Shown piece by piece: positions 43,337 through 63,986 of a stretch of DNA of 64,000 nucleotides. Both the position numbers and the translations under genes were made by a program. The notes under the pieces were generated by a model. The model saw only the letters and a program-made list of their open reading frames with translations. It searched no databases and was not told where the DNA came from. The DNA is from Neptunomonas concharum (GTDB taxonomy: Bacteria; Pseudomonadota; Gammaproteobacteria; Pseudomonadales; Balneatricaceae), in the NCBI RefSeq assembly GCF_008630635.1, contig NZ_CP043869.1, forward strand, positions 2,603,160 to 2,667,159. Direction: 5' to 3'. Position 1 is the stretch's first letter. Every line of letters starts with the position of its first letter.

Positions 43337-43661
43337 ATCCTTGGCAGGAACACAATGCAGTGTTCTTTACTCGCAAGGACAATCCGCTTTCTCTACGTTC
43401 CCGGTGGAGAAAAGCCGTTATGCAAAACTGGCTTACCAAGCTTTTCATCATATTTTCAAACATGCCCATCGTGTTAATACGAAATATGATGAAGCTCACC
43501 TTCAGATAGGAAACGAGCGTTATATTTGCTTTCAAGTAGCACAAGAGTGTTTTTATATCAGCTTACTACCGCCCAAGAGTGATATAAATAAGGCTCAAAA
43601 AGTGATTCGTGGTGCGCATAAAGTGCTCACGAAGCTACATAACTCGACCGCCCCAACATAA
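43311..43661 (+). CDS. Probable Roadblock/LC7-like partner of the GTPase
   Basis: Encodes 116 residues from the ATG at 43311, with GGAG five bases upstream. The secondary-structure pattern, helix (ILTKLESLAG), strands (CSVLYSQGQSAFSTFP), long helix (RYAKLAYQAFHHIFKHAH), strands (EAHLQIGNERYICFQVAQECFYISLLPP), helix, fits a Roadblock/LC7 domain, and such proteins (MglB, CvnB) are regulators of Ras-like GTPases encoded beside them. The call rests on pattern and neighbourhood, not on recognised family sequence. The start overlaps the GTPase gene by 26 bases, and the 3' end overlaps the convergent regulator gene by 35 bases. Confidence 0.55.
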   Translation: MSKILTKLESLAGTQCSVLYSQGQSAFSTFPVEKSRYAKLAYQAFHHIFKHAHRVNTKYDEAHLQIGNERYICFQVAQECFYISLLPPKSDINKAQKVIRGAHKVLTKLHNSTAPT

Positions 43662-44667
43662 CCGGCTCACTGTCAGGATTAGATTCTACATCCCGCTTAC
43701 GCTCTTCCCTTGGGGTAATTCCATAATGATTACGGTATGCAGTGCTAAAATAGGAAGCACTTGAAAAGCCACAAGCCAGCCCTACCTGCAGAATCGTTTT
43801 ATCACTCTGTCGTAATAGTTGCCGTGCCTGCTCAAGCCGTAAATCCAGATAATATTTAGAGGGTACGGTTTGCAGGTGCTTTTTAAACAGCCGCTCTAAA
43901 TGGCGTCGGGATACGCCTACATGATGCGCTAAATCATCAGTGGACAAAGGCTCCTCTATGTTCATCTCCATCAAGGTAACCGCCTCTATCAATTTAGGCT
44001 GGCTGGCTCCGATTCGTGCTTTCAAAGGGATTCTCTGCTGCTCTTCTGAAGTGCGCATCCGCTCATAGACAAACTGCTCTGAAATGGAGGCTGCCAAGTC
44101 CATCCCATGCTCTTTGCCAATCAAAAATAACATCATATCCATCGCCGCAGTGCCACCACTGCACGTGTAGCGATTACCGTCAATCTCAAATAAATTATTC
44201 GTCACTTGCGTATTGGGGAAATCTTCTTTGAGACTCGCTATATCCCACCAGTGAATAGTGGCCCGATAATTATTCAAGAGACCTGCACAGGCAAGTAGAT
44301 AAGACCCAGTACCTATGCCACCCAGTGCAATATTTGCGTGGCGCTGTTTTCTCAACCAACCAATGACTGCCTCGTTACCCGTACGTGCCACAGGGCTTGC
44401 ACCACAGACAAAAAGCGCATCTAAAGTCGGCATATCATTCAAACTGCAATCAACCAGTGTTTGCACACCAAAGCTACTCGCCACCGCTTCACCATCATGA
44501 CTGATCAGTAAGGTTTCATAGCACTCATCCCCCGTTACCCAATTAGCCATTCTTAAGGGCTCAATAGCGGATGAGAACGCAATCAACGAAAAGTTAGGTA
44601 GCAATAAAAAGCCGAATCTTTTGGGTCCGGTTTTTTTTTCTTCTATGGTCTGTTTAACCATTGCCAA
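43627..44667 (-). CDS. GlxA/ArgR-like AraC-family transcriptional regulator
   Basis: Encodes 346 residues: an N-terminal DJ-1/PfpI (amidase-like) domain (about 18-195; FGFLLLPNFSLIAFSSAIEPLRMAN) and a C-terminal AraC double helix-turn-helix (about 225-325; HHVGVSRRHLERLFKKHL and LACGFSSASYFSTAYRNHYG). This architecture is shared by ArgR, GbdR and CdhR of Pseudomonas. Because it is divergent from aruC and near the aru operon, an ArgR-type arginine regulator is the best guess; the N-terminus itself also resembles the betaine/carnitine regulators. The start may be TTG at 44667 (7 bases from AGAGGT) or ATG at 44661. Confidence 0.82.
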   Translation of the reverse strand: MAMVKQTIEEKKTGPKRFGFLLLPNFSLIAFSSAIEPLRMANWVTGDECYETLLISHDGEAVASSFGVQTLVDCSLNDMPTLDALFVCGASPVARTGNEAVIGWLRKQRHANIALGGIGTGSYLLACAGLLNNYRATIHWWDIASLKEDFPNTQVTNNLFEIDGNRYTCSGGTAAMDMMLFLIGKEHGMDLAASISEQFVYERMRTSEEQQRIPLKARIGASQPKLIEAVTLMEMNIEEPLSTDDLAHHVGVSRRHLERLFKKHLQTVPSKYYLDLRLEQARQLLRQSDKTILQVGLACGFSSASYFSTAYRNHYGITPREERKRDVESNPDSEPVMLGRSSYVAS

Positions 44668-44927: not shown

Positions 44928-46163
<1,236 letters not shown>

Positions 46164-50765: not shown

Positions 50766-50945
50766 ACAACATTCACCTACCCACTGAGTAGGCAAGTGTA
50801 CTCCTTCATTTGCTTTGTAAACACTGTCATCTTCATTGGCTTAACATGCTCCTCAGGGCGCAATACTGAAAATCAGGTCGCATAGACGACAGAAACTTTT
50901 CTGATAGTCGCTAATAATGAGAAGATCAGAAAAAGGATTATGAAC

Positions 50946-52187
50946 ATGACATTTGATTACACGCCTTGGTTAGATTGGTTAGATACACAACAAGATTTGA
51001 TGCTGCAGCGCACTCTTGAGCTGTCACTCATCAATTCTGGCACGTTAAATGCCGAAGGCGTCAATCACGTTCGCCAGACCCTCAGCGATTATTGCGAATC
51101 GCTAGGCGGTACAATCGAAGTCATACCTGTTCCTGATTATGAATATGTCGCCACCAATGGCGTTGTAGAAACCACCCCGCTAGGTGATGCTCTACGTATT
51201 AAAAAACGCCCTGACGCTCCTTTACAGATATTTTTCTGCGGCCATATGGATACCGTATTCCCTATTGACCATCCTTTTCAAAACGTGACATGGCTGGATG
51301 ACAACACACTCAATGGTCCAGGTGTCGCCGATCTTAAAGGTGGGCTGTTAGTCATGCTAAAAGCTATTGAAGCCCTAGAGCGCAGTCCATGGGCAGATAA
51401 AATCGGCTGGGAGATTCTCTTTAATCCCGATGAAGAGATAGGTTCTCCAGGTTCTGCTCCATTGATAGCCGATGCGGCTACACGCGTTGACTTAGGCATG
51501 ATCTACGAACCTTGTATGCCCGATGGTACGTTGGCTGGAGCCCGTAAAGGCAGTGGTAATTTCAGCGTTGTGGTCCGGGGTAAGGCTGCCCATGCAGGGA
51601 GAGAACACCATCTTGGCCGTAACGCAATTCGGGCAATGAGCGATTTTATTTCAGCCCTAGATGACCTCAATGGGCAGCGAGAAGGCGTGACGATTAACCC
51701 AGGTTTTATTGAAGGGGGCGGCGCTGTCAATATCGTTCCTGAGCTGTGCATCTCGCGTTTCAATATCCGACTAGAGCAACCAGAAGATGAGCAGTGGTGT
51801 TTAGATCACATCAATCAGTTAATTCAGAATCTGAATGGCCGTGATGGCATACAAGCACAACTGCACGGAGGTTTTGGTCGCAAGCCCAAAGTGTTATCAC
51901 CCGCTAACCAAAGGCTTTTTGAATTGGCACGCGATTGTGGCAGTGAACTGGGTATGCCCATTCGCTGGCAAGCAACGGGGGGTTGTTGTGATGGGAATAA
52001 TCTTGCAGCGGCAGGTATCCCCAACATAGACACATTAGGTGTCCAAGGCGGGAAAATACACTCATCAGAGGAGTATATGCTCGTCAGCAGCTTGGTAGAA
52101 AGAGCCAAACTCAGTGCCTTATTACTCATGAAACTGGCTACTACAGAAGACCTGGGCTGGCTCAAGGAGAACCCCGAATGCTGTTAA
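50946..52187 (+). CDS. M20-family metallo-hydrolase in the ast operon
   Basis: Zinc-dependent amidohydrolase of the M20 (ArgE/DapE/CPG2) family. Metal ligands are visible: His100 and Asp102 (GHMDTVFP), Asp129 (GVADLKGG), and catalytic Glu163/Glu164 (PDEEIGSPGS); GGCCDGNN and GGKIHSSEEYM complete it. The ATG at 50946 is 7 bases after AAGGAT and is preferred to that at 50940. Its stop overlaps the aruF start by 10 bases, so it belongs to the arginine operon. The usual AstE (M14-type) is absent from the operon, so this protein might cleave N-succinylglutamate or an N-acyl arginine; substrate unproven. Confidence 0.85.
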   Translation: MTFDYTPWLDWLDTQQDLMLQRTLELSLINSGTLNAEGVNHVRQTLSDYCESLGGTIEVIPVPDYEYVATNGVVETTPLGDALRIKKRPDAPLQIFFCGHMDTVFPIDHPFQNVTWLDDNTLNGPGVADLKGGLLVMLKAIEALERSPWADKIGWEILFNPDEEIGSPGSAPLIADAATRVDLGMIYEPCMPDGTLAGARKGSGNFSVVVRGKAAHAGREHHLGRNAIRAMSDFISALDDLNGQREGVTINPGFIEGGGAVNIVPELCISRFNIRLEQPEDEQWCLDHINQLIQNLNGRDGIQAQLHGGFGRKPKVLSPANQRLFELARDCGSELGMPIRWQATGGCCDGNNLAAAGIPNIDTLGVQGGKIHSSEEYMLVSSLVERAKLSALLLMKLATTEDLGWLKENPECC

Positions 52188-53191
52188 TTCGCCCCCTTAC
52201 CTTTGCTGATCTTCAAGGTTTAGAGAGGCTAGCTGTCATCTCTGGTGGTAAAATGACCACCTTACCAGCCAACCGAGATCACTTAAGCGAACTGATTAGC
52301 AAAACTCAGCGATCTCTCAAGAAAACAATAGACCGCTACAGTGATGAGAGTTATCACTTCGCCCTCGAAGACCTTGAGCGAGGCGAGATCGTAGGCGTCT
52401 GTGGTATCGATGCCAGCGTCGGATTAAACACGCCCTTCTATAGCTACCGCATAGATGAGGTGGTTCATGCATCTAACGAACTACAGATCCATAATCGCAT
52501 ACCCGCGCTACACCTTTGCCAAGACTATACCGGTGCCGCTCGCTTATGTACGCTGTTTCTGGACAAAGCCTATCGTAATGAGGCTAACCTTAATCTGCTA
52601 TCCCGCAGCCGTATGCTCTTTATCGCCCAGAACCCTGAGCGCTTCTCAAGCCGTCTTATAGCTGAACTACAAGGCGTTGCTGATGATCAAAACCGCTCCC
52701 CTTTCTGGGAGTGTTTAGGGCGGCACTTTTTTAATATGGACTTCACAAAAGCCAATTACCTTACGGGGATAAACTCCAGAGGCTTCATTGCAGATTTGAT
52801 GCCCCACTACCCTGTATACGTTCCACTACTGTCGGCAGAAGCACAAGCGGCGTTGGGCAAACCCAGACCGGATATGTCTACAGTAGAGTCGTTACTCCTT
52901 TGCGAAGGCTTTAATTTTAAAGGTTACGTCGACATCTTTGATGCAGGACCAACACTGGAAACTCGCACGCTGGATGTTCGCTCTGTCGTGCAAAGCCAGT
53001 TAAAGACCATACAGATTGGCGAACCTGTCGAAAATGGGGACCTGCAGCCTGCATTAATCAGTAATCTGAGTCGAGAAGCATTTCGCTGTGTGTCAGCTTC
53101 AATCAATATCACTCAGCCCACGCTGACTCAGGAGGTTGCTGACTTACTGAACCTACGCCAAGGTGATCAGGCTCGCATTATCCCACTCTGA
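52178..53191 (+). CDS. aruF: Arginine N-succinyltransferase, alpha subunit
   Basis: One subunit of the succinyl-CoA:arginine (and ornithine) succinyltransferase, the first step of the AST pathway. 337 residues with MLLIRPLTFADL, YSYRIDEVVHAS, LCTLFLDKAYRN and SPFWECLGRHFFNMDF, all typical of AstA-family proteins. As in Pseudomonas there are two homologous genes in tandem, expected to form a heteromer. The first gene is AruF by order. Confidence 0.93.
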   Translation: MLLIRPLTFADLQGLERLAVISGGKMTTLPANRDHLSELISKTQRSLKKTIDRYSDESYHFALEDLERGEIVGVCGIDASVGLNTPFYSYRIDEVVHASNELQIHNRIPALHLCQDYTGAARLCTLFLDKAYRNEANLNLLSRSRMLFIAQNPERFSSRLIAELQGVADDQNRSPFWECLGRHFFNMDFTKANYLTGINSRGFIADLMPHYPVYVPLLSAEAQAALGKPRPDMSTVESLLLCEGFNFKGYVDIFDAGPTLETRTLDVRSVVQSQLKTIQIGEPVENGDLQPALISNLSREAFRCVSASINITQPTLTQEVADLLNLRQGDQARIIPL

Positions 53192-53240
53192 ATTAAGCTA
53201 GTCGGCAATTAGTACCGTGAGAACAGGAGAGATTTAAACA

Positions 53241-54269
53241 ATGATGGTAGTCCGCCCAATACAGGCAGAAGATTACACAGCACTGAGAGAGCTGGCTCGC
53301 AAAACAGGCCCAGGCTTTACCTCGCTTCAGGATAACGATACTCAGGTTGCTGCAAAGCTGGAAGCCGGTTTAGCCGCATTTTCCGCCTCCCCCCCTCTGG
53401 CAGAGGCTTTATATCTGTTTGTCATGGAAGAAACGGAGACCAATGAAGTCGTTGGCATATGCGGTATTGAGTCGGCTGTTGGCCTGTCTGAACCGTGGTA
53501 CAACTATCGCGTTGGTACGTTAGTACACGCCTCACGCGAACTAAAAGTTTATAACCAGATCAATACGCTCACAATAACCAATGACCATACCGGCTATTCT
53601 GAGCTGTGCACCCTATTTTTAAGTCCTGATGCACGCCATAGTAAAAATGGATCGTTACTGTCGAAATCGCGTTTTATGTTTTTGGCAGAGTTCCCGCAAC
53701 GCTTCAATGAACATCTCATCGCTGAAATGCGAGGCTACTCCGATGAAAACGGCATTTCACCCTTTTGGGAGGGGCTCGGACGGCACTTTTTCTCACTCGA
53801 TTTTACAGAAGCAGACCGGCACTCATCCATGAACAAAGTTTTCATTGCCGAGCTTATGCCTAAAAATACGATTTATACCAATCTGCTCCCCAAAGAAGCC
53901 CAAGAAGCGATTGGTAAAACCCACGAAGCCACAACTCCCGCCCGCCGTTTACTCGAAAATGAAGGGATGCGATACACCGGCTACGTCGATATCTTTGATG
54001 GTGGCCCAACACTCGAAGCACGTATACACGACATTCGAGCCGTGCAAGAGAGTCAATATGTCAAAGCGCATATTGCCGATCTACCATCCGAAGGTGAACT
54101 CTATCTGATCAGCACGACGGAATTTTCAAATTTCCGCTGTTGCATGTCACCCATTACACGCGTCAGCAAAAACTTGGTCACCGTCAGCCCAGACGTGGCA
54201 AGTGCCCTAAATATCAATGAAGGCAGCACGATCCGTATTGTACCGCTGTCTTCTGGAAGGAGATTTTAA
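53241..54269 (+). CDS. aruG: Arginine N-succinyltransferase, beta subunit
   Basis: Second AstA-family subunit, 342 residues, homologous to the preceding gene throughout (MMVVRPIQAEDY, YNYRVGTLVHAS, LCTLFLSPDAR, SPFWEGLGRHFFSLDF, GYVDIFDGGPTLEA). AGGAGA lies nine bases before the start. It abuts astD with no spacer. The pair aruF-aruG points to the Pseudomonas-type two-subunit enzyme rather than the single AstA of Escherichia coli. Confidence 0.94.
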   Translation: MMVVRPIQAEDYTALRELARKTGPGFTSLQDNDTQVAAKLEAGLAAFSASPPLAEALYLFVMEETETNEVVGICGIESAVGLSEPWYNYRVGTLVHASRELKVYNQINTLTITNDHTGYSELCTLFLSPDARHSKNGSLLSKSRFMFLAEFPQRFNEHLIAEMRGYSDENGISPFWEGLGRHFFSLDFTEADRHSSMNKVFIAELMPKNTIYTNLLPKEAQEAIGKTHEATTPARRLLENEGMRYTGYVDIFDGGPTLEARIHDIRAVQESQYVKAHIADLPSEGELYLISTTEFSNFRCCMSPITRVSKNLVTVSPDVASALNINEGSTIRIVPLSSGRRF

Positions 54270-55739
<1,470 letters not shown>

Positions 55740-55747
55740 GGGATACT

Positions 55748-57082
55748 ATGAACGCCGTAGAAGCAAATTTTGACGGGCTCGTAGGCCCAACGCACAACTA
55801 TGCAGGACTGTCATTCGGCAATGTCGCCTCCGAGAACAATATTGCTCAGGCGTCAAACCCTAAACTCGCGGCGCTGCAAGGTCTTGCTAAAATGAAAGCC
55901 CTACACGATCTGGGGATGACCCAAGGGGTATTGGCGCCTCAGGAGCGTCCAGATCTGAACACGCTTCGGCGACTGGGGTTTAGCGGTAGCGATGCAGATG
56001 TGCTCGCTGCTGCTGCAAAACAAGCACCACGCCTTCTGGCCGCCTGTTGTTCAGCCTCCAGTATGTGGACGGCCAACGCGGCCACGGTATCACCGAGCGC
56101 CGATACACGCGATGGCAAAGTCCACTTTACGCCAGCCAATTTAACTAACAAATTTCATCGTTCTATTGAGCACGAAGTCACAGGGCGTATTCTGCAAGCC
56201 ACCTTTGCTGATGAAAAACATTTTGCTCATCACAGCGCCCTCCCCGGCGTCGAGCACTTTGGTGATGAAGGTGCCGCAAACCATACCCGTTTCTGCCATG
56301 ACTACGGTAAAGCAGGCGTTGAATTTTTCGTCTTTGGCCGCTATGCATTTGATGGTAGTAAGCCAGCTCCGCAACGCTATCCGGCACGCCACACCTATGA
56401 AGCCTCCGAAGCAGTCGCACGGTTACATGGATTACGCCAAGAAGGTGTCGTTTATGCCCAACAAAACCCCGTTGTTATCGACAAAGGGGTCTTCCACAAC
56501 GATGTTATCGCTGTAGGCAACCGCGATCTTTTGTTTTGCCATGAAGAAGCATTCCTCAATCAAGCAGAGGTGAAAAATCAACTCAGTAGAGCAATGCAGG
56601 ATCAATTTCATGTAATCGAAGTGCCTTCTCATCGTGTTTCTGTTGAGGATGCCGTAAAAAGCTATTTGTTTAACAGCCAGTTACTTAACGTTAAGGGTAA
56701 AACGGTATTGGTCATTCCTGAAGAGTGTCAGCAAATACCCAACGTTTGGGCTTACCTTAACGAGCTGCAAAGTGGTACTGCCCCTATTGATGAGCTCAAA
56801 GTGTTCGACCTCAAGCAAAGTATGAGTAACGGCGGCGGCCCGGCTTGCCTGCGCCTACGGGTAGTACTCAATGAGCAGGAAAAAGCAGCTTGTAACGCGC
56901 ACACCTTGATGAGCGAAGCTTTATATAGCCAGCTAACTACTTGGGTAGAAAATCACTACCGCGACCGTTTGCTAGAAAGTGACTTAGCTGACCCCTTACT
57001 GCTTAATGAGTCGCGCAGTGCCTTGGATGAGCTAACCCAGATTCTCAACTTGGGTTCCGTGTACCCATTCCAACGCGTTTAG
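55748..57082 (+). CDS. astB: N-succinylarginine dihydrolase
   Basis: Hydrolyses N2-succinylarginine to succinylornithine, CO2 and two ammonia, the second AST step. 444 residues, full length, with [40 protein letters not shown] and [16 protein letters not shown]; His and Cys of the last two motifs belong to the amidinotransferase-fold catalytic triad. Last gene of the aruFGDB unit; a strong terminator follows. astE is not found after it. Confidence 0.96.
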
Positions 57083-57117
57083 CTCCAGTTACTTATGTTT
57101 CGAGTTGTTCTTCTGTC

Positions 57118-57141
57118 ACCGGGCGCAAGCCCGGTTTTTTT
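57118..57141. terminator. Terminator of the ast operon
   Basis: ACCGGGC (57118-57124) pairs with GCCCGGT (57129-57135) around GCAA, followed by seven T. It also touches the end of the convergent LysR gene. Confidence 0.88.
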
Positions 57142-58076
57142 CACTCCAACATGCTTTCAAACAATCCAAGGCTACTTATCTGCAACTGCTTAAGTTCTTT
57201 ACGCATCAGCTTTACGAAGGACAACGTCATGGCTGATTTAGTTTTATGGGCAGGAAAAATCAAGTTGTAGCGGTAAGCAATACGGGGCTCAAAGCGTTTA
57301 ACCACAACCCCTAGCTTTTGATAATGCAGTGCTGTGATAGGCTCAACTAAAGAAACCCCGCTACCCGCTAACACCAATGCGCACGCGCTGTAGGCTAATT
57401 GCGTGTCCACTAATAACTGCCGACTTACCCCTGCCGAATCAAAAACGCTGTCAATCTTATGGCGAATACTCTGCTCAGTGCCTAAAGAGATAAACGCTTC
57501 CCCTTCCAAATCGGCGGGTGAAATATAACTTTTGGCTGCCAAACGATGACCTGGTGGCAAAATACACACCAAGCGGCTCTCAGCCAGAGGCTCCATTTCT
57601 ATCGAAGCATCCGCTAAGGGAATAGCGGACACAACGCCTAGATCATATTGCTGACTAGCCACTAAGTCCGCCACTTGCTGAGTACTACGTACTTGCAATG
57701 AAAAAGAGACTTCAGGATGAGCTTGGCTAAATAGTTGTGTCACCTTTGGAATAAACTCTACGGAAACCGCCGGCATTGAGGCTACACGTAATGAACCTAT
57801 ATGGCAGGCACGTAAATCATCGGCTGCACGGGCCAATGTTTCAATAGAGACAAATGAGCGTTCGACCTCGGCATAAAATACATGTGCTTCGGGGGTTGGA
57901 ATCAGACGCTTCTTGTGGCGCTCGAACATCTGCACGCCCACTTCTTCTTCAAAATCGCTTAATAGGCGACTGACCGCCGGTTGGGAGACACACAAAATAC
58001 CGGCGGCTCCGCTGGTTGTTCCGCTAATCATCACCGCCCGAAATGCCTCAATTTGCCGGTAGGTTAAACGTGCCAT
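57141..58076 (-). CDS. LysR-family regulator, OccR/NocR-like
   Basis: Encodes 311 residues: an N-terminal winged helix (TYRQIEAFRAVMISGTTSGAAGILCVSQPAVSRLLSDFEEEVG in pieces, residues 4-50) and a LysR substrate domain (about 92-300). The start RQIEAFRAVM and the SQPAVSRLLSDFE helix match the OccR/NocR opine-regulator branch. It is divergent from the TRAP/oxidase operon, the usual LysR arrangement, and lies between that operon and the arginine operon. The inducer is predicted to be an opine or related imino acid; not shown by the sequence. Confidence 0.85.
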   Translation of the reverse strand: MARLTYRQIEAFRAVMISGTTSGAAGILCVSQPAVSRLLSDFEEEVGVQMFERHKKRLIPTPEAHVFYAEVERSFVSIETLARAADDLRACHIGSLRVASMPAVSVEFIPKVTQLFSQAHPEVSFSLQVRSTQQVADLVASQQYDLGVVSAIPLADASIEMEPLAESRLVCILPPGHRLAAKSYISPADLEGEAFISLGTEQSIRHKIDSVFDSAGVSRQLLVDTQLAYSACALVLAGSGVSLVEPITALHYQKLGVVVKRFEPRIAYRYNLIFPAHKTKSAMTLSFVKLMRKELKQLQISSLGLFESMLE

Positions 58077-58090
58077 CCTCTACTCCACTT

Positions 58091-58138
58091 AATAACAAAA
58101 TATTATCAAGTGATACTAATAAACGATTTGATGTTATT
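58091..58138. promoter_or_regulatory. Candidate LysR operator region
   Basis: Within the 126-base divergent gap, TATCA-AG-TGATA (58104-58115) is an inverted repeat, flanked by AATAAC (58091) and GTTATT (58133-58138) as an outer pair. Such A/T-rich dyads are usual in LysR-controlled gaps. Binding is inferred only. Confidence 0.35.
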
Positions 58139-58202
58139 TATGCAACTCTTCATTATTAATCAAACATTCACCTCATTTACACAATAACAATGCGAGGTCT
58201 CA

Positions 58203-58766
58203 ATGGAACAACTGTTTCGTTATGTACTTACAGCACTGATCAGTACGGTTGCCGCCTGCCAATTCATTCAGGTGATTACCCGCTATGTGTTCGAGACGCC
58301 TATCATGGGGCTCGAAGAAGCTGCATTAATTCCGACCATCTGGCTTTATATTTTAGGTAGTGTTAACGCTTCCCGAGAAGATACACAGATACGCGCCAAT
58401 GTATTAGAAATCTTTCTGAAAACCCCAAAAGCCAAACTGATCCTACACACCTTATCTGAAGCCATTAGCATCGTGATATCGATCTGGCTGACATGGTGGG
58501 CCTGGAAATATTTCAGCTACGCCTTACGCGTTTGGAAAGAGTCTCCCACCCTTTATATACCCACCTTTGTCTACGAATCAGCGCTGTTTATCGGCCTACT
58601 ACTCATGACGTTATTTACCCTATGGCACCTCTATCGCCATCTGCAGTACTTGTTTGGTTTCAAAGCAATTCCAGAAGATCTGTTTGGTGATCCAGAGATC
58701 GCATCAACCCCGGAATTAGATGAAATGCAATTATTGGCTGATCGTAACAAAGGACAAGCATCATGA
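58203..58766 (+). CDS. dctQ: TRAP transporter small permease (DctQ type)
   Basis: Four-helix small membrane subunit of a TRAP transporter. 187 residues with YVFETPIMGLEEAALIPTIWLYILGSV as the DctQ signature. The C-terminal 30 residues are acidic and cytoplasmic. Its stop overlaps the dctM start (ATGA). First gene of the TRAP/oxidase operon, divergent from the LysR gene. Confidence 0.93.
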   Translation: MEQLFRYVLTALISTVAACQFIQVITRYVFETPIMGLEEAALIPTIWLYILGSVNASREDTQIRANVLEIFLKTPKAKLILHTLSEAISIVISIWLTWWAWKYFSYALRVWKESPTLYIPTFVYESALFIGLLLMTLFTLWHLYRHLQYLFGFKAIPEDLFGDPEIASTPELDEMQLLADRNKGQAS

Positions 58767-60061
58767 TAGAGATCGCTATTCTCGCTTTTGCTGTACTCGT
58801 AGTTTTGTTAACGCTAGGCGTCCCGCTGCCTTACTGCTTTGGCGCAGGGTTAATGGTCATGACATTGGTCGGCGAAGCCACTATGCGCGGCATGATGCTG
58901 TGGGGGTTTAGTCAGCTTACCAACCCCGTACTGTTAGCTATTCCTTTGTTTGTCTTTGCCGGAACCATCATGAGCGTCAGTGGCATTGCTGCCAGTTTGC
59001 TCAAGTTTGTTAACATCTTTGTAGGCAGGGTTCGCGGGGGATTAGGCGTTGTCGCAACAGTTAGTTGCGCCATTATCGGCGCAATATCCGGGAGCGGACT
59101 CACCGGTGTAGCAGCGATTGGCCCTTTACTGATTCCTGAAATGGAAAGTAAAGGGTACCCAAGGGCCTATGCCACGGCGCTGGTCGCTAACTCTTCAATC
59201 CTTGGTCTGCTGATTCCCCCAAGCGTAACCATGATTGTTTATGGCTGGGTGACCGACACCTCAATTCTGGCAAGCTTCCTCGCCACTCTGGGTCCTGGCC
59301 TGCTGATTATGCTGAACTTTTCCATCGTCAATATGATAATGGCACGTAAGTTTCCGTTAGTGCTCGATGAGCCGATGGATACCGCAGCACTGATGAAACA
59401 TGCCAGTAAGCGTACTATCAATGCGATCCCTGCGTTACTGATGCCGGTGATTATTCTAGGTGGTATCTACGGCGGCATTATGACGCCCACCGAGGCCGCC
59501 GCTGTTTCTGTGATCTACGCATTGCCTGTTGGTTTTATGATTTACAAGGGGCTGACATTCCGCACGTTACTGGATGCTGGTAAAGAGTCTGCTTCTGCTG
59601 TCGGTGCAATCCTCATCATGATTTTGTTCAGTCTAATGCTGAGTCAAATCTACGTTATGGAGGATATTCCTCAGGCACTGGTGGACAAAATCTTTGAGTT
59701 CACCGATAACAAAGTGCTGTTACTTATTATGATCAATCTGTTCCTGTTTGGGATCGGTATGATCGTGAACGACATCACCGCTATCATTCTAACAGCTCCC
59801 CTATTGCTTCCTTTGATGACAGCGCTTGGCGTTAGCCCTGTTCAATTCGCTGCCATTATGGGTGTTAACACCGCGATGGGAGGCGTTACTCCACCTTATG
59901 CCAGCATTCTCTACCTAGGGGCGCGTATCGGTAAAGTGAAATTCACTGAAGTCGTTAAGCCCGCCATGATTTTGCTGATTTTTGGTTACATTCCTGTCGT
60001 GATTTTGGTCTCTGTCTGGCCTGATCTCTCGGAATATATTCCACGTGCCTTTGGCTATTAA
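58763..60061 (+). CDS. dctM: TRAP transporter large permease (DctM type)
   Basis: Large membrane subunit that couples sodium flow to solute uptake. 432 residues with about 12 hydrophobic segments; GAISGSGLTGVAAIGPLLIPEM, LIPPSVTMIVYGWVTDTSI and GIYGGIMTPTEAAAVSVIYAL are DctM signatures. The substrate is not defined by this subunit. Overlaps dctQ by four bases. Confidence 0.95.
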   Translation: MIEIAILAFAVLVVLLTLGVPLPYCFGAGLMVMTLVGEATMRGMMLWGFSQLTNPVLLAIPLFVFAGTIMSVSGIAASLLKFVNIFVGRVRGGLGVVATVSCAIIGAISGSGLTGVAAIGPLLIPEMESKGYPRAYATALVANSSILGLLIPPSVTMIVYGWVTDTSILASFLATLGPGLLIMLNFSIVNMIMARKFPLVLDEPMDTAALMKHASKRTINAIPALLMPVIILGGIYGGIMTPTEAAAVSVIYALPVGFMIYKGLTFRTLLDAGKESASAVGAILIMILFSLMLSQIYVMEDIPQALVDKIFEFTDNKVLLLIMINLFLFGIGMIVNDITAIILTAPLLLPLMTALGVSPVQFAAIMGVNTAMGGVTPPYASILYLGARIGKVKFTEVVKPAMILLIFGYIPVVILVSVWPDLSEYIPRAFGY

Positions 60062-60094
60062 ACCCTGCTCATCCTAAATACTCGGGAGAAAACA

Positions 60095-61093
60095 ATGAAA
60101 ACAAACCTGGTAAAAAAACTTGCGCTGGCTGTCGCCATCTCCGCTTCTATGAGCGCTATTGCACAAGCTGCGACACTTAAATTGTCCCATGTGCGCCCTC
60201 AAGAGACGGCCATCGATGTGGATGCTAAACGCTTTGCAGCAGATGTTGCTGAAGCGACAGAAGGCAAAGTAAAAATCAAAATTTATCCTGCCAGCTCACT
60301 CGGTGATTACACCGTGGTACAAGAGCGTGTTGGCTTGGGTGCAATTGATATGGCCGTCCAACCACCCGCATCCAGCGCCGATAAGCGCTTCCAAGTGGTG
60401 TATATGCCTTATCTGGTAAAAACCTGGGACGACGCTCAAAAGGTGTTTGCCAAAGGCTCACCTATGCGACAAACCGTTGCTGACCTGTATGGTGCTCAGG
60501 GAATTAAGGTACTCGGCGCGTGGCCAGTTTATTTTGGGGGTATCTCGCTAAACAAAGAGATCGACAATGCCGCTGATCCAACGGTAATGAAAGGTGCAAA
60601 ACTGCGTGTTCCACCGATCAAAACATTCCAGCTGACAGCAGACAATATCGGCTTTATCGGCTCCCCTCTACCGTTCTCGGAAGCCTTCACTGCGGTTCAA
60701 ACCGGTGTTGTTGATGGCGTCATGGGCTCAGGTGCAGAAGGCTACTACGCATCGTTCCGTGATGTAACGAAAAGCTACCTGCCTATCAACACCCACTTTG
60801 AAATGTGGTACCTGATTATCAGTGATGAAGTCTTCTCTGAGCTTGATGGAAAACACCAAGAAAAACTGATGGCAGCCGCCGAAAAGTTCGAAAACAGCCG
60901 CTGGGAAACCGCACGTGCGGATCAATCAAAAAATGAGCAGCTTCTGGCCAAAGCCGGTGCCACCATCGTTCCGGTTTCTGATGAGCAAATTGAAGCTACC
61001 GCTAAAATCGTTCGCGAGAAAGTCTGGCCGGAAGTGATCAACGATATTGGCGCAGAATGGGCTCAAGGCGTATTGGATAAAGCCCTGCAATAA
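60095..61093 (+). CDS. dctP: TRAP substrate-binding protein (DctP type)
   Basis: Periplasmic solute receptor with a signal peptide (residues 1-26, ending IAQAA). 332 residues; LKLSHVRPQETAIDVDAKRFAADVAEATEGKVKI at the start and GAKLRVPPIKTFQLTADNIGFIGSPLPFSEAFTAVQTGVVDGVMGSGAEG in the middle are DctP features, and the arginine in LRVPP is the usual carboxylate anchor of TRAP receptors. So the substrate has a carboxylate. It is followed by a terminator before the oxidase genes, suggesting higher expression of the receptor. Confidence 0.94.
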   Translation: MKTNLVKKLALAVAISASMSAIAQAATLKLSHVRPQETAIDVDAKRFAADVAEATEGKVKIKIYPASSLGDYTVVQERVGLGAIDMAVQPPASSADKRFQVVYMPYLVKTWDDAQKVFAKGSPMRQTVADLYGAQGIKVLGAWPVYFGGISLNKEIDNAADPTVMKGAKLRVPPIKTFQLTADNIGFIGSPLPFSEAFTAVQTGVVDGVMGSGAEGYYASFRDVTKSYLPINTHFEMWYLIISDEVFSELDGKHQEKLMAAAEKFENSRWETARADQSKNEQLLAKAGATIVPVSDEQIEATAKIVREKVWPEVINDIGAEWAQGVLDKALQ

Positions 61094-61116
61094 GCGTTTC
61101 TACCCTTGTCTCATTT

Positions 61117-61146
61117 GTCCGGCGCTACGGCGTCGGGCTTTTTTAA
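61117..61146 (+). terminator. Terminator or attenuator after dctP
   Basis: GTCCGGCGC (61117-61125) pairs with GCGTCGGGC (61130-61138) with two G-T pairs around TACG, followed by six T. Partial read-through to the oxidase genes is likely because those have no other clear promoter. Confidence 0.7.
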
Positions 61147-61169
61147 TCTTACAGGACATTGTCTGACTT

Positions 61170-62288
61170 ATGCGTTTAACTGAAAGCCAACACGGCACAG
61201 ATATCTGTGTGCTGGGAGGAGGCATCGTCGGTCTAGCCATCGCTCTGGGTCTGCTTCGTAATGGTCATCAGGTCACTCTTTTAGATGAAGGTGATATTGC
61301 ACTGCGCGCGTCCCGCGGAAATTTTGGTCTTGTCTGGGTTCAGGGAAAAGGAGATACCTTACCTGAATATGCAGCAATCAGCCGACAATCCGCCAAACTA
61401 TGGGGCACCTTAGCCGAGCGCTTACAGGCATCTACGGGAATTGATATACAGCTTCAGCAACGGGGAGGCTTATACGTTTGCCTACACGAAGATGAGCTTA
61501 AAAAGCGCCAAACCATGCTCATGACAATGCAACAAGCTGCCGGCGGGGATTATCCATTTAAAACACTGGATCTGGCAGAAGTTCGCGAATTTTTTCCACA
61601 GATTGGTCCTGAAGTCGCAGGCGCAACTTGGTGCCCTGAAGACGGCCACCTCAATCCACTGCTGTACCTGCGCGCTATGACCGAAGCGTTTAGCCAACAA
61701 GGTGGGATACTGGTCACAGGTAGCCGAGTCGACAAAATAATCCCTCAATCGACTGGCTTTAAAGTCGAGACAGAAACTCACACTGTTCATTGTGACAAAG
61801 TCGTCTTAACAGCAGGCTTAGGTAACCGTGATCTAGCGCCGATGGTGGGGCTGTCTGCTCCCGTTGTTCCGAATCGCGGACAAGTACTGATCAGCGAGCG
61901 ACTCGACCCGTTTATCCATTATCCTACGGGTCATGTTCGTCAAACGGCAGAGGGTACTGTACAGATCGGTGACTCTAAAGAAGATGTCGGCTTTGACAGC
62001 GGTACCACCCTTGATGTTATGGCCAAGATTGCCGCCCGCGCCCGAAAAATGTTCCCTATTTTAGATAAAGCTCGTTTAGTCAGAGCTTGGGGAGCACTTA
62101 GGGTAATGACACCCGATGGCTACCCCATCTATGAACAATCCACCCAATATCCGGGCGCTTACTTAGTTACCTGTCATAGCGGTGTGACATTGGGAGCACT
62201 TCACGAAGGCCCCTTAGCCGATTGGATATCGAGCGGCCAAACCCAACTACCTCTGGAGGTGTTTCATGCCAAACGCTTCGAGCTTTAA
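61170..62288 (+). CDS. FAD-dependent oxidoreductase, DAO family (opine oxidase beta-like)
   Basis: Encodes 372 residues of the D-amino acid oxidase (DadA/HcnC/OoxB) family. FAD motif GGGIVGLAIALGLL is at residues 16-29, ASRGNFGLVWVQGKGD and CPEDGHLNPLLYLRAM are characteristic, and HSGVTLGALHEGPLADWI closes the FAD site. In opine oxidases and hydrogen cyanide synthase this subunit holds the imino/amino acid active site. It overlaps the 2Fe-2S gene by 23 bases, so the three enzyme genes form a coupled set. Exact substrate unknown: an N-carboxyalkyl amino acid or D-amino acid are the options. Confidence 0.88.
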   Translation: MRLTESQHGTDICVLGGGIVGLAIALGLLRNGHQVTLLDEGDIALRASRGNFGLVWVQGKGDTLPEYAAISRQSAKLWGTLAERLQASTGIDIQLQQRGGLYVCLHEDELKKRQTMLMTMQQAAGGDYPFKTLDLAEVREFFPQIGPEVAGATWCPEDGHLNPLLYLRAMTEAFSQQGGILVTGSRVDKIIPQSTGFKVETETHTVHCDKVVLTAGLGNRDLAPMVGLSAPVVPNRGQVLISERLDPFIHYPTGHVRQTAEGTVQIGDSKEDVGFDSGTTLDVMAKIAARARKMFPILDKARLVRAWGALRVMTPDGYPIYEQSTQYPGAYLVTCHSGVTLGALHEGPLADWISSGQTQLPLEVFHAKRFEL

Positions 62289-62601
62289 TCGCCTCCCGAC
62301 TCACGACGGTCATTGGGTTACCGTGTGGGTTGAAGGGCAAGCGATCAAAGTACGCTCTCATGACTCAGCCGCAGCTGCGGTATTAGCCGCAGGATTGAAC
62401 GCCAGCCGCACCAGCGCGGTAAGCGGCAGCGCTCGTGCGCCCTATTGCATGATGGGCGTATGTTTTGAATGTCTGCTCGAAATAAACGGAGAAGAGAACG
62501 TGCAAGGGTGCATGACCCAGGTTTCGGAAGGGATGCACATACGCCGCCAACAGCGAGCACGCCATTTGGTCGATGATTTATCAGTAGAGGTTAAATCATG
62601 A
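62266..62601 (+). CDS. Small 2Fe-2S subunit (HcnA/OoxC-like)
   Basis: Encodes 111 residues of the plant-ferredoxin-like family. Cluster ligands are Cys61, Cys66, Cys69 and Cys82 (C-x4-C-x2-C-x12-C, in PYCMMGVCFECLLEI and QGCM). Ribosome site GGAGGTG lies before the ATG at 62266 although it is within the DAO gene. Comparable small subunits pass electrons between the two flavin subunits of heteromeric opine, D-hydroxyproline and cyanide-forming dehydrogenases. It overlaps the next gene by ATGA. Confidence 0.9.
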   Translation: MPNASSFNRLPTHDGHWVTVWVEGQAIKVRSHDSAAAAVLAAGLNASRTSAVSGSARAPYCMMGVCFECLLEINGEENVQGCMTQVSEGMHIRRQQRARHLVDDLSVEVKS

Positions 62602-63986
62602 AAAGTGACATCTATGACCTAATCATTATCGGTGCAGGCCCAGCGGGTATGGCGGCGGCTGCCACAGCGGCACAAAAAAAACTGCGCGTAGCCATACTCG
62701 ATGAGCAACAGACACCCGGCGGGCAGATTTATCGTAGTATAAAACAGCCTGCCCCAGCGGATGAGCACATCCTTGGGCCTGATTACTATTATGGCCGTCA
62801 TCTCTTAGAAGGGTTAGAAAATGCGCCTGTGACTTACCTACCCGGCACCATGGTTTGGTCGATTGATGATGATCTAAACATCGCGTTTAGTCGCAACGGT
62901 TGCAGTGAAAAACTACAAGCTAAACGTATCTTACTAGCCACGGGCGCAATGGAACGACCGGTTCCCTTCGTGGGTTGGACAACCCCCGGGGTTATGACCT
63001 GTGGGTCCGCACAAATCCTGCTAAAAACCAGTGGGCTAACACCTGCATTGCCTTTAGTACTGGCAGGAAGCGGGCCTTTATTGCTATTGATCGCCGTACA
63101 GCTGCACCGAGCGGGTGTACCCATTAGCGCCATTTTAGATACCACCCCAAAAGGCCGCTATCGCAGTGCATTGCGTTATCTCCCTAATGCGTTAAAAAAC
63201 ACCCCACTACTCCTGAAAGGGGTGGGACTGTTACTGACACTGAAAAAAGCAGGCATTCGTTATATTAACCACGTGACTGACCTGACCGCTATCGAAGGCA
63301 ATAATGGCCATATAGAACAGGTTTTATTTTCGAGCGCTAAGGGGCAGGAAAGCCTTACCTGCACGACCCTGTTAGTACACCAAGGCGTGGTGCCTAACAC
63401 CCAGCTGAGTCGCGCTTTACAGCTCAAGCATCAGTGGGATGAACTCCAACAATGCTGGCGTCCCGAGCGAGATCGTTGGGGCGAAACATCTAAACGAGGT
63501 ATCTTTATTGCCGGCGATGGTGGCGGTATTGCAGGAGCCAAAGCCGCTGAGTATCAAGGTCAGCTCAGCGCCCTTAAAATTGCAACGCAACTTAATGCAT
63601 CATCAACTGATAGTTTGCAAAAAGAAGCGTCGGGTATAGAAAAACGCCTGCAACAGCAGTTATCTGTCCGCCCATTTTTGGATCACTTATACCAACCGGC
63701 AAACTCCTTTCTGTTACCGCCTGATGAAACCATCGTATGTCGGTGCGAAGAAGTCACCGCCGGAGAAATTCGCAACATTGCTAAACTGGGTTGTACCGGC
63801 CCCAACCAGACAAAATCCTTTTGCCGTTCAGGCATGGGGCCTTGCCAAGGGCGTTTATGTGGACTCACTGTCGCTAATCTGATTGCGGACGTTCACCAAC
63901 TACCCGTGAATGAGGTAGGCTACTACCGAATTCGCACACCGATCAAACCATTAACCATCGGTGAGCTAGCCGATTTAGCTGAATAG
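62598..63986 (+). CDS. FAD/NAD(P)-dependent oxidoreductase, alpha subunit (OoxA/HcnB-like)
   Basis: Encodes 462 residues. The first Rossmann motif GAGPAG is at 12-17, the second near 150-165 (VLAGSGPLLLLIAVQL), and the C-terminal BFD-type cluster site has Cys381, Cys383, Cys416 and Cys421 (CxC-x32-CxxxxC). This is the alpha subunit of the opine oxidase/HcnB/D-hydroxyproline dehydrogenase family; it passes electrons to the quinone or another acceptor. It is the last gene visible; only 14 bases remain in the window, so further operon genes cannot be excluded. Confidence 0.9.
   Translation: MKSDIYDLIIIGAGPAGMAAAATAAQKKLRVAILDEQQTPGGQIYRSIKQPAPADEHILGPDYYYGRHLLEGLENAPVTYLPGTMVWSIDDDLNIAFSRNGCSEKLQAKRILLATGAMERPVPFVGWTTPGVMTCGSAQILLKTSGLTPALPLVLAGSGPLLLLIAVQLHRAGVPISAILDTTPKGRYRSALRYLPNALKNTPLLLKGVGLLLTLKKAGIRYINHVTDLTAIEGNNGHIEQVLFSSAKGQESLTCTTLLVHQGVVPNTQLSRALQLKHQWDELQQCWRPERDRWGETSKRGIFIAGDGGGIAGAKAAEYQGQLSALKIATQLNASSTDSLQKEASGIEKRLQQQLSVRPFLDHLYQPANSFLLPPDETIVCRCEEVTAGEIRNIAKLGCTGPNQTKSFCRSGMGPCQGRLCGLTVANLIADVHQLPVNEVGYYRIRTPIKPLTIGELADLAE

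Follow-up and report, generated by a model that had tools for sequence, protein, structure and literature searches.

Organization of the Locus

The window analyzed here is a 64,000-nucleotide stretch of the genome of the gammaproteobacterium Neptunomonas concharum (contig NZ_CP043869.1, positions 2,603,160–2,667,159). Toward its end lies a module that combines a LysR-type regulator, a tripartite ATP-independent periplasmic (TRAP) importer, and a three-subunit flavoenzyme resembling the opine oxidases encoded on tumor-inducing (Ti) plasmids. Every gene that the initial annotation had named in this block, including those of the neighboring arginine succinyltransferase (AST) cluster described below, is an intact open reading frame (ORF) located where it had been placed. 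Ten of the encoded proteins were checked against Pfam and NCBIfam, and DctQ and DctM were assigned by their identity to annotated TRAP permeases of another locus (L085).

The regulator gene (57141–58076, reverse strand; Pfam HTH_1 and LysR_substrate) is separated by 126 bases from the first gene of an operon on the forward strand that runs in the order dctQ-dctM-dctP-β-γ-α. This gap contains a match to a two-site LysR-type operator motif, ATAA-N7-TTAT-N18-RATTTGA (58092–58131, forward strand). The importer consists of the small permease subunit DctQ (58203–58766; 61% identical to the annotated small permease of L085), the large permease subunit DctM (58763–60061; 83% identical to the annotated large permease of L085), and the solute-binding protein DctP (60095–61093; Pfam DctP, 6.9e-43). 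It is followed by the OoxB/NoxB-type β subunit of the DAO family, which is predicted to be the catalytic subunit binding flavin adenine dinucleotide (FAD; 61170–62288; Pfam DAO, 5.9e-65), by the γ subunit, a 2Fe-2S protein with the cysteine pattern C-X4-C-X2-C-X12-C (62266–62601; Pfam Fer2_4, 2.3e-23), and by the OoxA/NoxA-type α subunit, a flavoprotein with an FAD domain and a BFD-type 2Fe-2S domain (62598–63986; Pfam Pyr_redox_2, SO_alpha_A3, and Fer2_BFD). The β and γ genes overlap by 23 bases, the γ and α genes by 4. Directly after the α gene, just past the end of the window, stands a RidA family gene (L002 9168–9521, equivalent to window positions 64008–64361), its product sharing 78% identity with an annotated member of this family.

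The Three-Subunit Flavoenzyme

In a quick maximum-likelihood tree, which comprises the 140 rows left after dereplication of 199, is midpoint-rooted, has long branches, and carries support values from the Shimodaira–Hasegawa-like approximate likelihood ratio test (SH-aLRT) only, the β subunit falls into a 98-row clade (SH-aLRT 98) with OoxB, NoxB, SacE, and the corresponding protein of Agrobacterium vitis, while LhpB of D-hydroxyproline dehydrogenase and SacH lie outside. It is 41% identical to both OoxB and NoxB (which share 38% with one another), 38% to SacE, and 48% to the A. vitis enzyme, as against 25% to LhpB and 24% to SacH. The α subunit shares 45% identity with OoxA and 42% with NoxA. 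The initial annotation had likened the enzyme to the Oox/Nox oxidases, and the tree upholds this assignment to the type-1 clade, apart from D-hydroxyproline dehydrogenase; HcnC, which had been named there as a further reference, is left unplaced, as none was identified in the collected sequences. Within the type-1 clade, the gammaproteobacterial TRAP-linked β proteins form a clade of 30 rows with a support of 100. A separate three-row TRAP clade, comprising two roseobacters and L105, lies near it, the tree leaving the branching relation of the two open. For two rows, L085_10442 and L120_9780, the TRAP label reflects nothing but proximity, and neither protein is a type-1 β subunit; the resulting count of TRAP changes is inflated and was not used.

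The cysteine pattern of the γ subunit aligns with OoxC, NoxC, and SacF, and the α subunit aligns with OoxA and NoxA. Nucleotide-binding, RxW, and 2Fe-2S cysteine motifs are all present in alignments with OoxABC, NoxABC, and SacEFG. For opine dehydrogenase, the RxW motif has been assigned to FMN binding, and the β-γ-α order and the cysteine motifs have likewise been described (PMC4575208). The enzyme thus agrees with the type-1 opine dehydrogenases (Oox/Nox/Odh) in its order of overlapping genes, in the clade of its β subunit, and in its cofactor motifs. The OdhABC enzymes of Pseudomonas putida and Bradyrhizobium, likened here by their published description, also have three subunits, overlapping genes in the order B-C-A, and the same cofactor motifs, but their genes are linked to an ABC-type transporter (PMC4575208).

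Two arginines of the β subunit, R257 and R311, are invariant in all 59 aligned proteins. In the reference alignment, the R257 position is occupied by Q in LhpB and by K in SacH. Arg311 aligns with an arginine of glycine oxidase that binds the substrate carboxylate. Arg257 might be a second carboxylate contact, as an iminodiacid would need.

The TRAP Importer and its Conserved Linkage

The genes for DctP and for the small and large permeases occur together, as is characteristic of TRAP importers of the DctP family. That such an importer shares an operon with an opine-type enzyme had been proposed in the initial annotation, and this linkage is kept across many genera. In a scan of one genome per species for relatives of the β subunit, 37 of the 80 loci retained (the best 80 of 94) are TRAP-linked (L003–L037, L047, and L077). 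They belong to genera including Neptunomonas, Marinomonas, Marinobacterium, Oceanospirillum, Halomonas, Vreelandella, and Amphritea, and further to Motiliproteus, Zobellella, Oceanisphaera, Neptuniibacter, Pontibacterium, and Pseudomonas. Together with four plasmid records (one of Oceanisphaera, two of Leisingera that are near copies of each other, and one of Sulfitobacter) they make up the 41 named TRAP loci considered below. Marine gammaproteobacteria and roseobacters repeatedly show the gene order LysR-dctQMP-β-γ-α-RidA. The LysR gene lies upstream in 39 of the 41 loci (it is downstream in L008, and none was seen in L030), and RidA follows the enzyme genes in 37, the exceptions being L005, L031, L036, and L021 (the sequence of L021 stops inside the module). 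Across the TRAP modules, DctM is 75–91% identical, with 69% in L120. Matches to the β subunit, the own genome included, were found in 12 of 57 relatives (E limit 1e-70) and in 6 of 194 genomes of the order (1e-40).

Six residues of DctP (R34, D71, R171, E215, H234, and E236) are invariant in all 47 DctP proteins of this type, those of roseobacters included. The best relative of solved structure is 4mco, which is not close (E 2.9e-21). The solved DctP proteins belong to the same family and conserve the arginine corresponding to R171, but R34, E215, and E236 differ in 4mco, where they align with F, S, and A, and in one unrelated DctP that was compared. Judging from these residues, the two arginines and the acidic side chains of DctP would, if they line the pocket, suit a zwitterionic diacid.

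In Motiliproteus coralliicola, a further dctQMP set, accompanied by a separate LysR gene, stands beside the module (L032, from the start to LysR). This second LysR protein groups with two roseobacter LysR proteins and that of L105.

Regulator and Operator

The LysR protein is 31% identical to OccR and 34% to SacR. In a tree of 58 LysR proteins selected from 120, all three belong to one 47-row clade (SH-aLRT 97). The 11 rows outside this clade include regulators encoded within 6.5 kb of an enzyme gene (e.g., L009, L064, and L086). The designation of the regulator as OccR/NocR-like in the initial annotation therefore holds only at the level of the clade shared with OccR and SacR; no NocR was identified. 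A LysR protein encoded near nocM of C58-type plasmids was considered as NocR and dropped, because it is only 22% identical to SacR, compared with a reported SacR–NocR identity of 33% (PMC6733357).

The operator between the regulator gene and dctQ is the only match in the window, and none was obtained in 100 shuffles. Of 148 loci, 26 have a single copy with this spacing, namely that of the window, 22 other TRAP loci (among them L121, a second copy of the genome of L014), both octopine operons, and one Azospirillum locus. In its exact form it is found in 21 of the 41 named TRAP loci. Searched genome-wide in the 57 relatives, 7 of 18 sites are located at the module. Nine of the other 11 are alike in sequence, and the three of these that were opened (L149, L153, and L155) each have a different LysR gene as their neighbor. 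The 201 genomes searched from another family of the order contain five sites, of which two are at the module and three, all opened, likewise adjoin a different LysR gene. The site in L149 (6530–6569; G000:C1:138529–138568), for instance, is of the same operator type and is flanked by another LysR gene on one side and an unrelated gene on the other, in surroundings that contain ORFs resembling aldehyde dehydrogenases (ALDH) and, weakly, RidA; similar sites exist in other genomes of the genus. ATAA-n7-TTAT repeats have been reported for CynR, too (PMC5002191). The element is thus a LysR-type operator common to the window and occ, and not a mark of opine loci.

Comparison with Known Opine Systems

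The opine operons of octopine-type plasmids contain occR divergent from occQ-occM-occP-occT-ooxB-2Fe-2S-ooxA-RidA, with RidA directly after ooxA (L091 8865–9209; L094 7865–8209) and ocd next; in the A. vitis copy, an arginase is annotated as well. The module in the window shares with these operons the divergent LysR gene of the OccR clade, the succession of importer, β-γ-α, and RidA, the clades of enzyme and regulator, and the spacing of the operator. It differs in having dctQMP instead of an ABC importer and in its replicon, as it is part of a genome consisting of one 3.56-Mb contig and not of a plasmid record. Moreover, unlike in the Ti operons, neither an arginase gene (rocF) nor ocd was seen, either within the operon or among the genes that follow (the downstream ORFs in L002).

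Nopaline-type plasmids carry β-γ-α, an arginase, an NAD-type opine dehydrogenase, and ocd, but no annotated RidA. The succinamopine plasmid possesses β-γ-α, a second β gene, and ABC genes labeled as Opp-type (PMC6733357), and on an A. vitis Ti plasmid a LysR-PotDABC-β-γ-α cluster encoding the β protein mentioned above adjoins traR. Clusters that combine a Pot-type ABC importer with a type-1 enzyme are present on this plasmid, in Azospirillum, in the family of genome G073, and in Pseudomonas. Their β proteins are 47–54% identical to that of the window, most have a LysR gene beside the Pot genes, and RidA is found in 19 of 26 loci. They differ from the module in the PotABCD-type importer, in the orientation of LysR, which is divergent in part of them and codirectional in the rest, and in usually having a second, type-2 β gene. 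The same enzyme clade is thus linked to Occ-, Pot-, or Opp-type ABC importers or to TRAP importers in different lineages. Locus L120 was considered as an instance of a TRAP importer replacing a Pot importer, but it is only suggestive, because another DAO-like ORF intervenes and the TRAP genes are encoded on the other strand.

In one opine-dehydrogenase-like cluster (L089 7025–7339), a plasmid database places the predicted resistance gene poxtA exactly on the gene of the 2Fe-2S subunit, which looks like an annotation error.

Proposed Function and Alternative Explanations

As judged from phylogeny and synteny, the combination of an opine-type enzyme with a TRAP importer is well supported as the core of the module, and the operon is likely to serve the uptake and oxidative cleavage of an opine, i.e., an N-carboxyalkyl amino acid (iminodiacid). 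We infer the substrate class, the energetics of transport, the electron path, and the role of RidA as follows. The LysR protein would sense the opine and activate the divergent operon from the two-site operator. DctP would bind the opine in the periplasm, and DctQM would use a cation gradient to import it. The secondary amine would then be dehydrogenated by the three-subunit flavoprotein, with the electrons passing through the FAD, FMN, and 2Fe-2S centers to the respiratory chain, and hydrolysis of the imine, perhaps aided by RidA, would release the parent amino acid together with a keto acid. Because no amino acid pathway recurs in the operon across genera, an opine whose products directly enter central metabolism, such as alanopine or strombine, would fit. 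A small marine iminodiacid of this class is at least as likely a substrate as an arginine opine such as octopine.

Several observations weigh against an opine system of this kind. The identity of the regulator to OccR is low, and because the LysR tree was sampled mostly from loci of this type, it does not test the LysR family as a whole. Twenty of the 41 named TRAP loci lack the exact operator, as do the A. vitis, Leisingera, Raoultella, Thalassospira, and succinamopine regions that were inspected. Its use as an opine-specific mark was rejected, because all six off-module sites that were opened adjoin other, unrelated LysR genes. The type-1 enzyme clade may not be restricted to opines either, since it includes uncharacterized modules with other neighbors, for example, racemase/ALDH clusters in rhizobia. 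Finally, a literature search on opines and TRAP transport, with subscription journals mostly outside its reach, yielded no paper on TRAP-mediated opine uptake (PMC10745273 included); the mentions are of ABC genes with an opine annotation and of TRAP systems serving other compounds (PMC9870897, PMC4334477).

A more specific proposal, made in the initial annotation, has an arginine opine (octopine or nopaline) as the substrate and the adjacent AST pathway as the route for the freed arginine. The stop codons of astB and of the convergent LysR gene on the reverse strand are indeed just 58 bases apart. All eight sampled genomes of the genus contain astB, four contain the module, and in these four the gap between astB and the β gene is 4.1, 4.3, 4.7, and 11.2 kb, i.e., always within 12 kb. 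AST-type genes were also seen near two Occ-type relatives: a Raoultella plasmid carries one for succinylornithine transaminase, and L128 has a partial astB at a distance of about 6 kb from the β gene. Two Halomonas TRAP loci (L012 and L017) contain a weak arginase-family match (26%). Outside the genus, in contrast, astB was seen within 12 kb of the β gene in none of the eight genomes with a β match, three of which have the two genes on different contigs; the β identities are 63–72% in five of the eight and 42–43% in three, one of which was opened and has Occ-type ABC genes (L107). Furthermore, in all four genomes of the genus that lack the module, asnC and a third AstA-like gene stand downstream of astB, either immediately or after intervening genes, so this neighborhood is independent of the module. 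As far as observed, the adjacency is confined to a single locus of this genus and therefore cannot carry the inference of an arginine opine, for which it was rejected as strong evidence. Together with the lack of rocF and ocd noted above, this leaves the proposed arginine link weak, although the AST genes do adjoin the module in all four module-bearing genomes, and we regard an arginine opine as a rather unlikely substrate. The adjacency itself may still be useful to the cell. One of the module-less genomes (G452) retains a lone RidA gene between astB and asnC (L158 2640–2990; 84% identical), suggesting from the gene arrangement that the module was lost there.

Less probable still is a dehydrogenase acting on D-amino or N-alkyl amino acids rather than opines, with the TRAP importer taking these up and RidA clearing the imine. 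The β subunit belongs to the DAO family, its closest solved structures are glycine oxidases, and RidA proteins act on imines of primary amines. Octopine operons carry RidA as well, however, Ti-plasmid opine enzymes bracket the clade that contains the β subunit, and the heteromeric D-hydroxyproline dehydrogenase is distant, at 25% identity. The gene order of hcnABC is γ-α-β and not β-γ-α as here, which argues against a hydrogen cyanide synthase, and in 59 Pseudomonas genomes the matches to OoxB are split into 10 at 40–44% and others at no more than 31%, HcnC itself not being identified among them. A D-hydroxyproline dehydrogenase is contradicted by the position of LhpB outside the β clade, and no 4-hydroxyproline epimerase match was found in the TRAP loci, which do not qualify as Lhp clusters. 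Despite the same three-subunit architecture of these two enzymes (PMC4575208), it is thus very improbable that the module encodes either of them.

Marine invertebrates form opines as end products of their anaerobic metabolism. An operon for opine uptake and cleavage with the distribution described above suggests, as far as can be judged from gene content, that many marine bacteria feed on opine-like compounds. Tentatively, it could represent a widespread TRAP-based system of marine gammaproteobacteria and roseobacters for the anoxia opines of invertebrates (alanopine, strombine, octopine), with the octopine and nopaline operons of Ti plasmids as derived members of a general scavenging module whose importer (TRAP, Occ, Pot, or Opp) is freely swapped. 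If so, one operon type would explain the use of nitrogen-rich opine carbon by many marine bacteria, the opine genes of Ti plasmids would fall inside a broad environmental family, and opines would be a new substrate class for TRAP importers. DctP and the αβγ enzyme make the assignment of an opine to the TRAP importer directly testable.

The Neighboring AST Cluster

Upstream of the module, on the forward strand, five genes of an AST cluster are found. The first encodes an M20 hydrolase (50940–52187; NCBIfam NF005602, 558 bits, cut-off 357) that lies within the block covered by the initial annotation and was left unnamed there. It is followed by two arginine N-succinyltransferase subunits, aruF/astA-type (52178–53191; Pfam AstA, 9.8e-122; TIGR03243 and TIGR03244 above cut-off) and aruG/astA (53241–54269; TIGR03244, 444 bits, cut-off 391), by the succinylglutamate-semialdehyde dehydrogenase gene astD (54270–55739; TIGR03240, 799 bits, cut-off 579), and by the succinylarginine dihydrolase gene astB (55748–57082; TIGR03241, 764 bits, cut-off 538). 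Farther upstream, two ORFs resemble by eye astC (44940–46163) and an ArgR-type regulator of the AraC family (43627–44667). On the other side of the module, beyond RidA, follow a convergent gene that appears AsnC/Lrp-like by eye and the third AstA-like gene (L002 10227–11285; 38% identical to aruF), which is retained in the module-less genomes of the genus.

A literature search for an M20 substitute for the succinylglutamate desuccinylase AstE returned nothing on point. Among the 57 relatives, 34 have astB, and in these the M20 hydrolase and AstE (profile TIGR03242, cut-off 305.65) are mutually exclusive. Thirty of the 34 contain the M20 hydrolase (E ≤1e-90) and no AstE match above 37 bits, and the remaining four have AstE matches of 196–342 bits, one of them below the cut-off, and no M20 hydrolase at E ≤1e-90. 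In the 23 genomes without astB, the M20 hydrolase is absent throughout, and AstE exceeds the cut-off in two. The M20 gene is located within 5 kb of astB in 27 of the 30 genomes, the other three having the two genes on different contigs. The genomes compared are related, so these counts do not represent independent events. Because of its mutual exclusion with AstE in the astB-bearing relatives, the M20 protein is probably the succinylglutamate desuccinylase of these bacteria and would constitute an unrelated replacement of AstE in the AST pathway.

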